From NCBI RefSeq assembly GCF_003545715.1, contig NZ_QVNU01000003.1, forward strand, positions 682,001-746,000: a stretch of DNA of 64,000 bases, read 5' to 3'. The notes below the pieces were generated by a model. That model was not told the DNA's origin. It saw only the letters and a program-made list of their open reading frames with translations, and did no database searches. Shown here one piece after another: positions 55,061 to 59,645 of the stretch. Every line of letters begins with the position of its first letter. Positions within the stretch are counted from its first letter, which is position 1. This DNA is from Taibaiella koreensis. Its GTDB lineage: Bacteria; Bacteroidota; Bacteroidia; Chitinophagales; Chitinophagaceae. Position numbers and translations under genes: made by a program.

Positions 55061-55093
55061 AACCGGCAGGATCATCGTCTTGCCGGCTTTTTT
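55061..55093 (+). terminator. terminator of the second sigma operon
   Basis: CCGGCAGGA (55063-55071) pairs with TCTTGCCGG (55078-55086, one G-U pair), then C and six T. Confidence 0.9.
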
Positions 55094-55178
55094 ATGCCCG
55101 GTCATTTTATGCGTATCGAAAAGGGAAAATATATTTATATTGTTTTACTTTGTGACGCACTCCTATAAACCAGATCCC

Positions 55179-55943
55179 ATGAACACCGCCCTGATCCTGG
55201 ATGATGAAGCGCTTGCCCGAATGAGCCTGCAAGGCTTGTTGCGCAAGCATTGTCCGCAGGTTGGCGACATCTACTGCGCTGCTACCGTTGCCGAAGCCGT
55301 TTCCGTATTGAAGGAAAAGACGGTCGGGCTTTTGTTTATCGATATTCACCTCGGTTCCGAAAGAGGGTTCGGTCTTGTCCGTAGCATTGACACCGAGAAA
55401 CAGGCGGTGATCTTTGTTACGGCGCATGAACAGTATGCCTTGTCTGCAATCAAGGCACATGCGCTTGATTATTTGCTGAAGCCCGTAAACATTGATGAGC
55501 TGAACGCAGCGGTAGAAAAGGCAAGCCGGTACCTTAACAAACATTATACCGGAAAGGAAGAAATACAGCGTGAGAACAGTGTCCATCCCGGACGCAGCGA
55601 TTACGATGCGCCGGGAAGGTTGATCATACCGCATGGGGCGGGATTCGATATTATCGATGCGCAGAAGATCATCTTTGCAGAAGCCGATGGAAATTATACC
55701 ATTTTCCACCTGGAAGGCTATAGAAAAATGGTTTCTTCAAAGCAGATCGGTTACTACGAGACAGTCCTGGAGCCATCGTCGTTCTTTCGCGCCCACAAGT
55801 CTTTTATCATTAACCTGAAGTACCTTACCGGCTATTCTTCACGGGAAGGCTATGTGGCCCACATGATGGAAGGGTATAAGATCCCGATAAGCCGCAGAAA
55901 GCTTCCTGACTTCCTGGAACGCTGTAAAAAAAGACAGCCGTGA
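55179..55943 (+). CDS. LytTR-family response regulator
   Basis: A 254-aa two-component regulator. The receiver domain (~1-120) has the acidic pair Asp8-Asp9, phospho-acceptor Asp55 (LLFIDIHLG), Thr81 and Lys101 (YLLKP). The LytTR DNA-binding domain (~150-254) contains IIFAEADGNYTIFHLEG, the FFRAHKSFIINLKYL signature and IPISRRK. The start at 55179 (MNTALILDDEA) fits the domain; the longer frame from 55080 runs through a terminator. It overlaps the kinase gene by 4 bp. Downstream targets may include the two small peptide genes after the kinase. Confidence 0.93.
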   Translation: MNTALILDDEALARMSLQGLLRKHCPQVGDIYCAATVAEAVSVLKEKTVGLLFIDIHLGSERGFGLVRSIDTEKQAVIFVTAHEQYALSAIKAHALDYLLKPVNIDELNAAVEKASRYLNKHYTGKEEIQRENSVHPGRSDYDAPGRLIIPHGAGFDIIDAQKIIFAEADGNYTIFHLEGYRKMVSSKQIGYYETVLEPSSFFRAHKSFIINLKYLTGYSSREGYVAHMMEGYKIPISRRKLPDFLERCKKRQP

Positions 55944-58837
55944 GAAAGCTTTCCGCATTGATAGGCTTCCTGCTGCTCGGCTATAATTCCGGTTCCCAGC
56001 CCGGTAGCTATATTCAATACACTACAGTAAACGGGTTGCTGAGCAATAAGCTTTATGATATCGTACAGGACAGGGACGGGTTTATCTGGCTATCGGGCAA
56101 TAGCGGCGTATACCGCTTCGATGGTACCTATTTCCGGAACTTCAGCATTGCCGATGGCTTGCCCGATAACGAAGTGCTGAAACTGTTTCAGGACAGCTAC
56201 GGGCGTATCTGGTTCTTCTGTTTTAATGGCCGTATCGCCTATTATCAAAACGGGCGGTTCCGTAATGATGCCAACGATAGCATTCTGGCCGGGATACAAT
56301 TAAAAAATATTCCCGTTAGCTTTTATGAAGGGAAGAACAACCTATTGCATATCCTTGTCCAGAACGGCAGTTATGTACTGCTCAAGATCAATGCAACAGG
56401 GATTGTAAGCAGCAAGATCGTTCATGCGCCGGCAAGTTGTTATTGGGAAGATAGGACAGACCGCTACTACCTGCACCGGGATTCTATTTTTAAGAATGGC
56501 AAATGCCTTTTTGGGATTGCCCCTTCGCTGAGCGCCAATATGCCGCAATATGCCTATACCGACCACAACACGCTATATTATCCGGGTAGGAAGGGCATTT
56601 ACCTGTTCCGGAACGATCATTTCCGGCTGCTTCTGCCAGCCGTGCGGTCGGCTGGTCCTATAAAAAAATTTTACGTAAACGGAGCAAACGAAATATTTAC
56701 GTTCAACAATGGCGGGGGCGTGACGCGCTGGCAAAAGACGGCCGGCGTCTTTAGGCTCATCGACTCGTATCCCGATCCTAAGAACGAAGGTAAAATACTG
56801 GTCGACCGGCAAAACGGGGTGTGGATCACTACGCTGACGCAAGGCTTATACTATTATCCTTCCGATAGCCGCAACTGGCGTATGGTCCCTCCCCGGAGCA
56901 ACTGGCCCGGAAAGATAGTCACCGATATGTTTATGACCAGCGAAGGGAAGATCATTTTGGGTTTTGAAAGCGGCAATGTCGCGATGGCCGATAAGGATTT
57001 TGATGTACAGGAGGCCTACCGACTTACCGGTGCAAATCAATATCTACCCGTCAGGGACATACGAATGACAGCCGGTCGGCAGATCGTCGTATCGGGGGCC
57101 AGCCGCTGTCTGGTAAAGCAGCATTCGAAAGCAGCTGCTATCGGCGCTTTTAAGGACATTGAAACAGACGGGCAGAAAGTATACTTTGCCACCATGACAG
57201 ACCTGGGTTGGCTCGATCCGGCAACAGGCCGCAGCTCCCTGTTCCATACCGAACGGGGAAAAGGACTCGGCACCCGAAAGTATGCGGTATGGCCTGCTAC
57301 GGGGAGCGATCGTTTGTGGTACAGCAGTATTGAAGGGCTGCAGTTGCTGGAGCGTGGTAAGAAAATGCCACTACCGGGAAGAGGCCATCCCTTCCTGCAA
57401 AAAAGGATCATCGATATCCGGGAGATGGGGCAGGGGCTTCTGGTGCTGGTAAGCGATGGCGAGGGCGTAGCTTTGACCGATAAGGATGGGAATGTGTTGC
57501 AGGTGCTGTCGGGCCGGGAGCTGCACTACGGGCTTATTGGAAAGGCCTTTGTGGAGGGCGATAAACTATGGCTTGCAGGTACTGCAGGTATTGGCATTTT
57601 TCAGCTTAGGGGAAACAAGCTCGTACCGCAGTACTGGATCGACAAAAACAGCGGCTTGCAATCAAACGATGTTCGTGCCTTTTGTGTGGACCGGGAATTC
57701 CTGTATGCATCTACCAATGGCGGATTACAGAAGCTAAGCCGGACCGCTTTGCTGAAAAAGGCAGGTACACCGCGCCTGTTCCTTCATGCGCTGGAGAGTG
57801 GCAGTAAAGTATGGACCGCCTATGGCGCGCAAATAGCCCTACCGCCGCGCTGCCGCGAGATCAGGTTGCATTGCAGCGCGCTGGCCTTTGGCAATACGGC
57901 CAGGGCTGTCTTTGCCTATCGTTTCGGGCCTTCAGGCAATTTCATCGAAACCAGCGACCCCATATTGACCATCCCGGTTGGCTTCGACGGTAAGGAAGCA
58001 CTCTTCCTTAAATGCAGGAAGGGCGATAGCGAGTGGTCGCAGGCAGCGGTATTGCGGCTCTATGTTCCAGTCCCCTGGCACAGGCAAACGGCAGCAGTAG
58101 CGCTATTTTTTATTGTCGCAGTGCTGACGGCGAGCAGTCTGAGCATGTATTTCGTCAACCGGCTGCGAAAACGGCAAATGAACATGAAGGATCTTAAGCT
58201 GCAGGTAGCGCTGCTCGAAATAAGCGCGCTACAATCGAGCATGAATCCGCATTTCGTCTTCAATGCCCTGAATTCTGTGCAGCATTTTGTCAACGAAGGC
58301 AATGCTTATGAGGTCAACAAATACCTGACCAAATTTTCGAGATTGTTACGTCGCAACCTCAACAACAATACCGCATCGCTTATCTCGTTGGAAAAAGAGC
58401 TGGCGGGACTGCGTGATTACCTGGAGCTGGAGCAGCTACGCTTTGGCAAAATGCTGCAATTCACGATCACCATCGATGAACATATCCCTGCAGAATACAC
58501 GATGATACCGGCCATGCTGGTACAGCCTCTGGTCGAGAATGCAATACTGCACGGTATACCCGATACCGGCTATACCGGCCATGTCGATATTGATATTTCG
58601 GCCGTCAGCAACCGCTTGCTGATCCGCATCAGGGATAATGGCAAGGGCTTGATGGTGCGGCCAGAGGAAAACGATGAGCACCGCAGCCTGGGTATACAGA
58701 CCATTAAAAGCCGGTTGGCGCTCCTGGGCGAAATTTACAAAGAGCACTATGCCTTTCATTTGTACGCCAATGAAGATGTTAAAGGCAGCAAAGGCGTTAC
58801 CGCCCGGCTGGAGTTGCCATTGGTCATCCGGCCCTGA
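55940..58837 (+). CDS. LytS-type histidine kinase with periplasmic propeller
   Basis: A 965-aa sensor kinase starting at GTG 55940 inside the regulator's stop (GTGA). After a signal sequence, residues ~25-610 carry two-component-regulator propeller blades (LSNKLYDIVQDRDGFIWLSG, LPDNEVLKLFQDSYGRIWFF). A Y_Y_Y-like domain follows (~630-710), then a transmembrane helix (~716-738; AVALFFIVAVLTASSLSMYF). The LytS kinase domain has its phospho-acceptor in SSMNPHFVFNALNS (~768), the N box in MLVQPLVENAILHG, and the G box in IRDNGKGL. Such hybrid propellers sense glycans or envelope signals. The ligand is unknown. Confidence 0.93.
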   Translation: MRKLSALIGFLLLGYNSGSQPGSYIQYTTVNGLLSNKLYDIVQDRDGFIWLSGNSGVYRFDGTYFRNFSIADGLPDNEVLKLFQDSYGRIWFFCFNGRIAYYQNGRFRNDANDSILAGIQLKNIPVSFYEGKNNLLHILVQNGSYVLLKINATGIVSSKIVHAPASCYWEDRTDRYYLHRDSIFKNGKCLFGIAPSLSANMPQYAYTDHNTLYYPGRKGIYLFRNDHFRLLLPAVRSAGPIKKFYVNGANEIFTFNNGGGVTRWQKTAGVFRLIDSYPDPKNEGKILVDRQNGVWITTLTQGLYYYPSDSRNWRMVPPRSNWPGKIVTDMFMTSEGKIILGFESGNVAMADKDFDVQEAYRLTGANQYLPVRDIRMTAGRQIVVSGASRCLVKQHSKAAAIGAFKDIETDGQKVYFATMTDLGWLDPATGRSSLFHTERGKGLGTRKYAVWPATGSDRLWYSSIEGLQLLERGKKMPLPGRGHPFLQKRIIDIREMGQGLLVLVSDGEGVALTDKDGNVLQVLSGRELHYGLIGKAFVEGDKLWLAGTAGIGIFQLRGNKLVPQYWIDKNSGLQSNDVRAFCVDREFLYASTNGGLQKLSRTALLKKAGTPRLFLHALESGSKVWTAYGAQIALPPRCREIRLHCSALAFGNTARAVFAYRFGPSGNFIETSDPILTIPVGFDGKEALFLKCRKGDSEWSQAAVLRLYVPVPWHRQTAAVALFFIVAVLTASSLSMYFVNRLRKRQMNMKDLKLQVALLEISALQSSMNPHFVFNALNSVQHFVNEGNAYEVNKYLTKFSRLLRRNLNNNTASLISLEKELAGLRDYLELEQLRFGKMLQFTITIDEHIPAEYTMIPAMLVQPLVENAILHGIPDTGYTGHVDIDISAVSNRLLIRIRDNGKGLMVRPEENDEHRSLGIQTIKSRLALLGEIYKEHYAFHLYANEDVKGSKGVTARLELPLVIRP

Positions 58838-59022: not shown

Positions 59023-59277
59023 ATGAAAAAACAAAAGTTGAACATTAAAAAGCTCTCCCTGGAGAAAGTGACGGTGCTGCCACTCCAGCAACAGGATAAG
59101 GCTAAGGGCGGATGCCCACCTACAAGCGCGACAGGCTCCTGCCTCACCTTTGTCGCCACATGCGATAATATGACCTGTACGGCGCCTACCCGGGTTAACT
59201 GTCCGAGTGTGCCGCCGCCATGCATGCATACCCGTCAGCCCGGCTGCCAGATGGAATCGGTATTTATTGCCTGTTGA
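59023..59277 (+). CDS. lanthipeptide-like precursor peptide 1
   Basis: An 84-aa peptide. The leader (1-30; KQKLNIKKLSLEKVTVLPL, then KAKGG) has the basic KLSLxKxTxxxL pattern of Bacteroidota class I lanthipeptide-type precursors and a double-glycine cleavage site at 29-30. The core (31-84) has eight Cys and about twelve Ser/Thr, with TC and SC pairs and several Pro, the composition expected of a ring-forming peptide. No LanB/LanC-like dehydratase or cyclase, and no peptidase-ABC transporter, is present in the window, so modification would need enzymes encoded elsewhere. It could instead be an unmodified disulfide-rich secreted peptide. Confidence 0.72.
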   Translation: MKKQKLNIKKLSLEKVTVLPLQQQDKAKGGCPPTSATGSCLTFVATCDNMTCTAPTRVNCPSVPPPCMHTRQPGCQMESVFIAC

Positions 59278-59336
59278 TCACATCGGAGCGGCGTCAGAAA
59301 TGCATTTTGCCCGTTATAACCTAAAATAAAAAGATC

Positions 59337-59579
59337 ATGAAAAAGAAATCCCCGAAACAAAGATTATCGTTAAAGAAAGTCCCTATGGGCCGGCTAACGG
59401 CGGCTGAAGAAAAATATGTCCTTGGCGCAGGCCGGTACGAAACAGAAGGCCGCACCTGCAATATCGTGGTCATACCTGTTCCGGAAACACAGTGGATACA
59501 GTGCTTTGAAACCCGGATGGCGCAGACCTGCGCGCTGTCGGGTGTATGCCAGGCGGCCTCATTGGTTTGTACCCGATAA
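59337..59579 (+). CDS. lanthipeptide-like precursor peptide 2
   Basis: An 80-aa peptide, 59 bp after the first. The leader (KKKSPKQRLSLKKVPMGRL) is again basic with the KLSLKK-type motif. A Gly-Ala-Gly follows at 30-32, where cleavage may occur. The core (from ~33) has five Cys in a different spacing from peptide 1 (TC, QC, TC, VC, VC) and several Ser/Thr. Leader and core lengths are alike in the two genes while the cores have diverged, which is usual for paired precursors served by one maturation system. No modification enzyme is adjacent. Confidence 0.68.
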   Translation: MKKKSPKQRLSLKKVPMGRLTAAEEKYVLGAGRYETEGRTCNIVVIPVPETQWIQCFETRMAQTCALSGVCQAASLVCTR

Positions 59580-59601
59580 TACCGTCGGATTTGTTACACA
59601 A

Positions 59602-59645
59602 ACAAAATAAAACCCGGCGTCGATCGACGCCGGGTTTTATTTTGT
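59602..59645. terminator. 44-bp perfect palindrome, bidirectional terminator
   Basis: Arms of 22 bp meet at 59623/59624 (the GC-rich part is AACCCGGCGTCGA and its complement), with T runs on both strands. It lies 22 bp after peptide 2 and 16 bp after the end of the convergent clpP gene. Confidence 0.95.

Follow-up and report, generated by a model that had tools for sequence, protein, structure and literature searches.

Two adjacent cysteine-rich peptides of Taibaiella koreensis as probable class I lanthipeptide precursors from a large, dispersed family

Two neighboring open reading frames of Taibaiella koreensis (Chitinophagaceae), ORF1 and ORF2, very probably specify class I lanthipeptide precursors with the GG-type leader of Bacteroidota. 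They would be modified in trans and belong to a dispersed set of more than 120 such genes. Both lie in a stretch of 64 kb (here called the window), corresponding to C17:682001-746000 of the 5.94-Mb assembly. They are not isolated: they are members of a precursor family more than 120 strong, in which the leader is shared and the cores are mostly unrelated. The chemistry, the assignment of the two peptides to enzymes acting in trans, their export and their function, as we infer them, would follow this course: (i) the leader would be bound by one of two LanB encoded elsewhere in the genome, and Ser and Thr of the core would be dehydrated; (ii) one of four LanC would close thioether rings with core Cys; and (iii) the C39-ABC exporter encoded beside LanB1 would cut after GG (or GAG) and export the ring-containing peptide.

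ORF1 (59023..59277) encodes a precursor peptide of 84 aa, MKKQKLNIKKLSLEK...KGG/C..., and ORF2 (59337..59579) one of 80 aa, MKKKSPKQRLSLKK...LGAG/R..., where the slash marks the predicted cut; both are on the plus strand and were identified by open reading frame and leader profile. The leader of ORF1 (59023..59112, 30 aa) ends in GG and that of ORF2 (59337..59432, 32 aa) in GAG, and each contains an exact fit to the LxLxKx5L motif (LSLEKVTVLPL in ORF1 and LSLKKVPMGRL in ORF2). Pinensin is a Bacteroidota class I lanthipeptide of this LxLxKx5L/GG leader type. The cores, at 59113..59274 and 59433..59576, contain 8 and 5 Cys after the cut site, together with Ser/Thr. The first-pass annotation had described two adjacent frames here, each with a basic leader of the KLSLxK kind and a Gly-rich cleavage point, followed by cores of 8 and 5 Cys, and all of this was recovered; as to the double-glycine site that it also named, ORF1 has GG and ORF2 has GAG.

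When the leaders were compared with profiles of class I precursors, as the same annotation had proposed, no Pfam match was obtained for ORF1 or ORF2, and the only NCBIfam family matching both was NF038153 (lant_leader_L1a), with 17.3 bits for ORF1 and 12.1 bits for ORF2, each below the cut-off of 22 bits that 93 places in the genome exceed. A leave-out profile made from the genome's own leaders, on the other hand, found both (E = 9e-9 for ORF1 and 2e-4 for ORF2 among 1143 window segments), the next-best window segment reaching no better than E = 1 and the reversed segments 0.09 at best. This profile comprised 119 other leaders from the same genome; ORF1 and the paralogue nearest to it had been removed and ORF2 had never been included, and the E-values it gives are therefore independent, unlike those from a profile of alignment A1, which includes both window leaders. 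Because the leave-out profile picks out the two peptides among 1143 segments, their likeness to the family's leaders is greater than chance. The core of ORF1 is akin to that of a paralogue at C10:1213660 (L084:5532-5750, minus strand), with CPPTSA.GSC and TCDNM.CT in common, and ORF2 has no close core relative among the peptides compared.

The same leader recurs throughout the genome. NF038153 matched 129 places at E ≤ 10, of which 93 scored over the cut-off and 88 reached E ≤ 0.001; of 14 control genomes, 5 had matches at E ≤ 10 and none had a match over the cut-off. A profile trained on 50 of the genome's own leaders found 139 places at E ≤ 1. One of the 129 matches (C24:108839) straddled two stretches and was left untranslated; among the remaining 128, 123 begin with MK and have at least 45 aa, and 121 of those 123 contain GG and were used for counts on cores. 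These cores have 19 to 79 aa and 2 to 13 Cys (median, 6), and Cys and Thr account for 13.6% and 12.2% of their residues, while Cys accounts for 0.2% of leader residues; Ser plus Thr equal or outnumber Cys in 117 of the 121. Compared pair by pair, the leaders have a median identity of 42% and the cores one of 19%, and 12 of 121 cores have a paralogue at 50% identity or more. A set of 125 genes (the 123, ORF2 and one more) falls into 93 places when neighbors within 3 kb are merged, with 69 singletons, spread over 12 contigs and both strands (64 versus 61).

The composition of the cores bears on another reading, which the first-pass annotation had put forward as its alternative, namely, that these are unmodified secreted disulfide peptides merely sharing the GG leader and the C39 exporter. 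The cores are very Cys-rich, and a C39 exporter could cut plain peptides. Even Cys counts are, however, the rule of thumb for disulfide-only secreted peptides, and in this family odd counts are as common as even ones (60 versus 61 of 121), ORF2 having five. Taken with the conservation of core Ser/Thr and the restriction of the leaders to genomes with LanB and LanC, both described below, these counts make a disulfide-only family unlikely.

The enzymes expected of class I lanthipeptide precursors are present in the genome, all of them outside the window: domain searches for LanB, LanC and C39 gave no match within the 64 kb, and every genome match was on other contigs. The earlier statement that no dehydratase, cyclase or peptidase exporter is found nearby thus extends to the whole window, and the genome-wide search that it called for revealed 2 LanB, 4 LanC and one C39-ABC/HlyD export operon, so that the outcome named as fatal to the proposal, a genome with no such enzymes anywhere, is not what was found. 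This supports its reading of ORF1 and ORF2 as orphan precursors modified in trans, the modification itself being predicted from the enzymes encoded elsewhere. LanB1 (1073 aa, with Lant_dehydr_N and _C domains) is on C16 in a row with the C39-ABC exporter (731 aa) and an HlyD-like protein, with a precursor upstream; in the sister genome G001, the corresponding row (L195) has counterparts of LanB1, exporter and HlyD at 89, 96 and 88% identity. The congener G117 shows the same LanB match (L149 and L184). LanB2 (922 aa) is on C20, and four stand-alone LanC (402 to 444 aa) are on C18, C10, C19 and C2; the four LanC-domain frames, at 407 to 448 aa, are too short for LanM. LanB1 carries FFIRY, HLRFR and ELERY; LanB2 carries FFIRY, HIRFR and HMHCNR; all four LanC carry WCYG and CHG; and the exporter carries MDCGPTC, motifs that we take to hold catalytic or metal-binding residues. 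Within 5 kb of the four LanC there are 2, 2, 1 and 3 precursors, and no lanthipeptide enzymes were seen by eye around three precursor clusters (L047, L048 and L049).

The LanB themselves leave some room for LanB-dependent peptides that carry no lanthionine, for example, dehydrated or glutamylated products or products of other ring chemistry, for which these same enzymes, guided by the leader, would be responsible. The C-termini of both LanB match TIGR03891, which is named thiopeptide-type, and among solved structures LanB1 matches 9g04 (its best relative) and 5ehk, NisB (4wd9, 6m7y) being matched only by LanB2, in addition to 9g04 and 5ehk. The four LanC with their WCYG and CHG motifs, each located beside precursors, and the fact that Cys is the most conserved core residue argue the other way, and we regard such products as distinctly improbable.

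Three side observations were also made. A second C39 domain (G000:C10:1226182-1226538, L035) is in a short stand-alone lipoprotein-like frame, possibly a separate leader protease. An exported-looking protein with a GExHN-like motif is encoded beside LanC or LanB at three loci (L046:9048-10250, minus strand; L149:13526-14731; L151:8906-9970); for the copy at L046, neither Pfam nor NCBIfam gave a match, and we presume a resemblance to erythromycin-esterase/TIKI-like proteins. In G001, a further LanC adjoins a LanB split in two genes (L194:10611-14912), as in an ordinary lanthipeptide cluster.

Comparison between species indicated that selection acts on the cores. We compared 42 precursors of G001 (of 71 matches at E ≤ 10) and 62 of G117 with those of T. 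koreensis; no orthologue of ORF1 or ORF2 was found in the sister-genome stretches compared (G001 and G117), and the evidence on selection therefore comes from other family members. For 29 of the 42 G001 precursors, the core had a reciprocal partner of 50% or more in T. koreensis; the same was true of 7 of the 62 from G117, 37 of which had no match of at least 35%. In the 29 G001 orthologue pairs, dN/dS was 0.09 for cores and 0.15 for leaders, with dS (1.46 and 1.07) near saturation. Core Cys was conserved at 166 of 168 positions, and Ser/Thr was replaced by Ser/Thr or kept at 224 of 239 core positions versus 72 of 103 in leaders (p = 3.5e-8) and versus 647 of 830 for other core residues (p = 2.6e-9); Pro (101/117) and Tyr/Trp (26/30) were also well kept in these cores. 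The seven G117 pairs gave a weaker picture, with Cys kept at 34 of 40, Thr at 27 of 36 and Ser at just 10 of 21. Protected Cys and hydroxy residues, with Ser and Thr interchangeable, form the pattern that thioether ring formation predicts, and the singling out of core Ser/Thr is not what plain disulfide peptides would lead one to expect.

These rates also bear on whether the genes are decaying, functionless remnants of duplicated precursor genes. Of the 128 translated matches, five were dropped: one false match (a peptidase-like frame, as judged by eye), one interrupted by a stop codon in frame (C16:155127) and three in which the match does not begin with ATG, one of which has an ATG further upstream. 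The stop and the missing start codons are what decay would produce; the other 123 are open and start with MK, the dN/dS values just given (from pairs that do not include ORF1 or ORF2) are low in cores and leaders alike, and promoters and RNA elements described below are conserved, which makes decay highly improbable for the family at large.

Leaders and enzymes also go together across genomes. Among 117 genomes drawn from the Chitinophagaceae, leaders (E ≤ 0.001) were found in 8, LanB in 16 and LanC in 19, and all 8 genomes with leaders also carry LanB and LanC; the probability of such overlap by chance, ignoring shared descent, is 1.9e-8 for LanB, 1.1e-7 for LanC and 4e-7 for LanB counted by genus. 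This is the distribution that tells against the disulfide-only reading. Half of the LanB genomes (8 of 16) gave no match to the leader model, and possession of LanB therefore need not entail a leader of the NF038153 type. Within the genus, the four genomes have 88, 62, 46 and 0 leaders at E ≤ 0.001, and the last of them, the congener G101, is also devoid of matches to LanB and LanC. In a survey of the class, leaders occurred in 21 of 395 genomes; first-look candidates numbered at most 26 per genome among the others listed versus 134 in T. koreensis, and the match counts of this survey, in which scoring covered up to 19 candidates per genome, are floors, none of the others listed going above 19.

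Two signals precede subsets of the precursor genes. The first is a shared promoter, found in 35 of 128 precursor upstreams and consisting of the palindrome ACTG[CA]A-N7-T[GT]CAGT (17-base core), 10 bases and then [TG]AnYTTT[GA]; the start of the model lies 56 to 88 bases upstream of the start codon, as at L045:6955 (plus strand), upstream of L047:7811, and ahead of further precursors in stretches of the T. koreensis genome (G000). The 35 upstreams score at least 19 and none of the remaining ones above 5.4; among 691 control upstreams, the 99th percentile is 1.3. In 1.02 Mb of T. koreensis DNA, the scan gave 40 sites, 36 of them ahead of 36 distinct precursors; of the other four, one is ahead of the LanC on C19, one has no assignable gene (L080) and two, judged by eye, are the palindromes of precursor promoters picked up on the opposite strand. 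The model was trained on upstreams in which it is counted; independent of that training are the 691 control upstreams, a further 400 kb of control DNA, in which neither the promoter nor any leader match was found, and G001, in which the stretches compared hold 12 distinct sites, one of them ahead of the counterpart of the C19 LanC (L198). The promoter was not found in the G117 stretches compared, and it is absent upstream of ORF1 and ORF2 (scores of -4.4 and -15.8 versus at least 19). The Bacteroidota promoter consensus has TTTG at -33. This form occurred in none of the 128 precursor upstreams, with just 0.08 in shuffles, and its -7 half alone occurred in 25 of 128 versus 8 in shuffles.

The second signal is an RNA-like element located before the start codon of 14 other precursors, NNGC[CT]GAA...CCCC-A-GGCNN..GACAGGGG, which is also present in G001 and G117 (alignment A2; examples include L113:4201-4259, L105:3706-3762 and L162:2419-2474). 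Its sequence fits an H-type pseudoknot. In A2, which draws 29 sequences from three genomes, pairing is seen in 90% of cells, both sides vary in 8 of the 11 pairs, and two-sided changes fill 34 cells versus 10.9 in shuffles, with pairing at 42 to 53% when the strands are slid, figures biased by the choice of 27 of the 29 sequences with a descriptor that requires some pairing. Without the demand for pairing, the contrast is weaker: the inner pairs form in 102 of 116 cases at fixed geometry versus 57 to 89 when slid. This loose descriptor gave 61 matches in 1.42 Mb of the T. koreensis genome, and folding of the strand, which cannot model pseudoknots, gave unremarkable z-scores that speak neither for nor against the element. 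Rfam 15 had no credible match at the element, all listed matches being far below gathering scores, and a search of literature listings showed nothing on it. Promoter and RNA element occur together in no T. koreensis precursor, and the element, like the promoter, is absent upstream of ORF1 and ORF2. It is present, too, ahead of a peptide whose GG leader is of another kind, MKFESLKSSKFEALSNTAIQHVFGG... (L096:1219-1262, minus strand), and its regulon may therefore extend past leaders of the NF038153 type.

As for the surroundings of the two window genes themselves, a LytTR-type response regulator (55080..55943, plus strand; LytTR domain at C17:737653-737922) is followed by a sensor-kinase-like protein of 965 aa (55940..58837, plus strand) that ends 185 bases before ORF1. 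The latter has weak kinase matches only, and we assume it to be a likely sensor histidine kinase, a name given mostly by eye; any connection of this pair to the ORF1 and ORF2 peptides would be tentative. Genome-wide, 7, 9, 17 and 19 of 48 LytTR genes are within 2, 3, 5 and 8 kb of precursors, versus 2.9, 4.4, 7.1 and 10.7 expected, an enrichment that is only a lead, since a series of distances was tried and the random placement took no account of gene positions. Between ORF2 and the next gene, a perfect inverted repeat flanked by A/T runs (59604..59643), read by eye, is likely a two-way terminator; the terminator scan did not list it and instead listed a weaker one at 59573-59588.

The family can be set beside two groups of known systems. 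With those of the pinensin and Pedobacter lusitanus PedA type, it shares LxLxKx5L and GG leaders, C39 peptidases, LanB and LanC, features that the accessible part of a survey gives for Bacteroidetes class I LanA (PMC7268733); PedA15.2, according to the text available, belongs to the class I lanthipeptides and is cleaved by a GG protease (PMC12328550). The arrangement differs, as the leaders compared outside the genus are mostly near LanB (19 of 22 within 20 kb), whereas in T. koreensis this is true of 1 of 129. The survey, as far as its accessible text states, restricted the precursor search by distance from the LanC gene (PMC7268733). Taibaiella ranks second in the phylum in gene-cluster load, and the word "lanthipeptide" is absent from the main text of the paper that reports it, as available (PMC9248904); our literature search, with reading confined to open papers, found no paper on Taibaiella and lanthipeptides. 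With the prochlorosins and synechococsins, the family shares the use of one enzyme set for many dispersed precursors with a common leader, variable cores and GG cleavage (PMC10783134). Those cyanobacterial systems, however, have class II LanM and Nif11 leaders, whereas the dehydratases of T. koreensis are LanB, predicted to act with LanC, and the leader family is another one, NF038153 being the only NCBIfam match of the two window peptides. The lanthipeptide system of T. koreensis may thus best be read as a Bacteroidota counterpart of prochlorosins.

Beyond the two window peptides, we lean, with modest conviction, towards a picture of the whole as a library in which more than 120 dispersed class I precursors would depend on 2 LanB, 4 LanC and one exporter. 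In this library, two control signals that were never seen together would act on subsets of the genes: (i) the palindromic, activator-type promoter, for 36 precursors and a LanC, and (ii) the pseudoknot, a new H-type 5' leader element of 14 precursors, as a riboswitch or a protein-binding translational switch. The products would be individually useful rather than random diversity, because purifying selection preserves many of the cores from one species to another.

To conclude, a few shared enzymes may suffice in T. koreensis to make a large library of ring-containing peptides. The one-enzyme, many-precursor lanthipeptide systems described in the available text of the source are class II and cyanobacterial, with precursors that can be scattered and that number 29 for ProcM and 79 for SyncM (PMC10783134), versus more than 120 here; a class I system of this size, if true, would suggest that the many-precursor design arose more than once. 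Since a LanC is found within 5 kb for 8 of the 129 leaders and a LanB within 20 kb for 1 of 129, mining near enzymes alone would miss nearly all of these precursors. The T. koreensis set would be a natural test of the tolerance of LanB and LanC for diverse cores, and because orthologues exist for 29 of the 42 G001 precursors compared, with the core strongly conserved, the purpose of such peptide libraries becomes testable.
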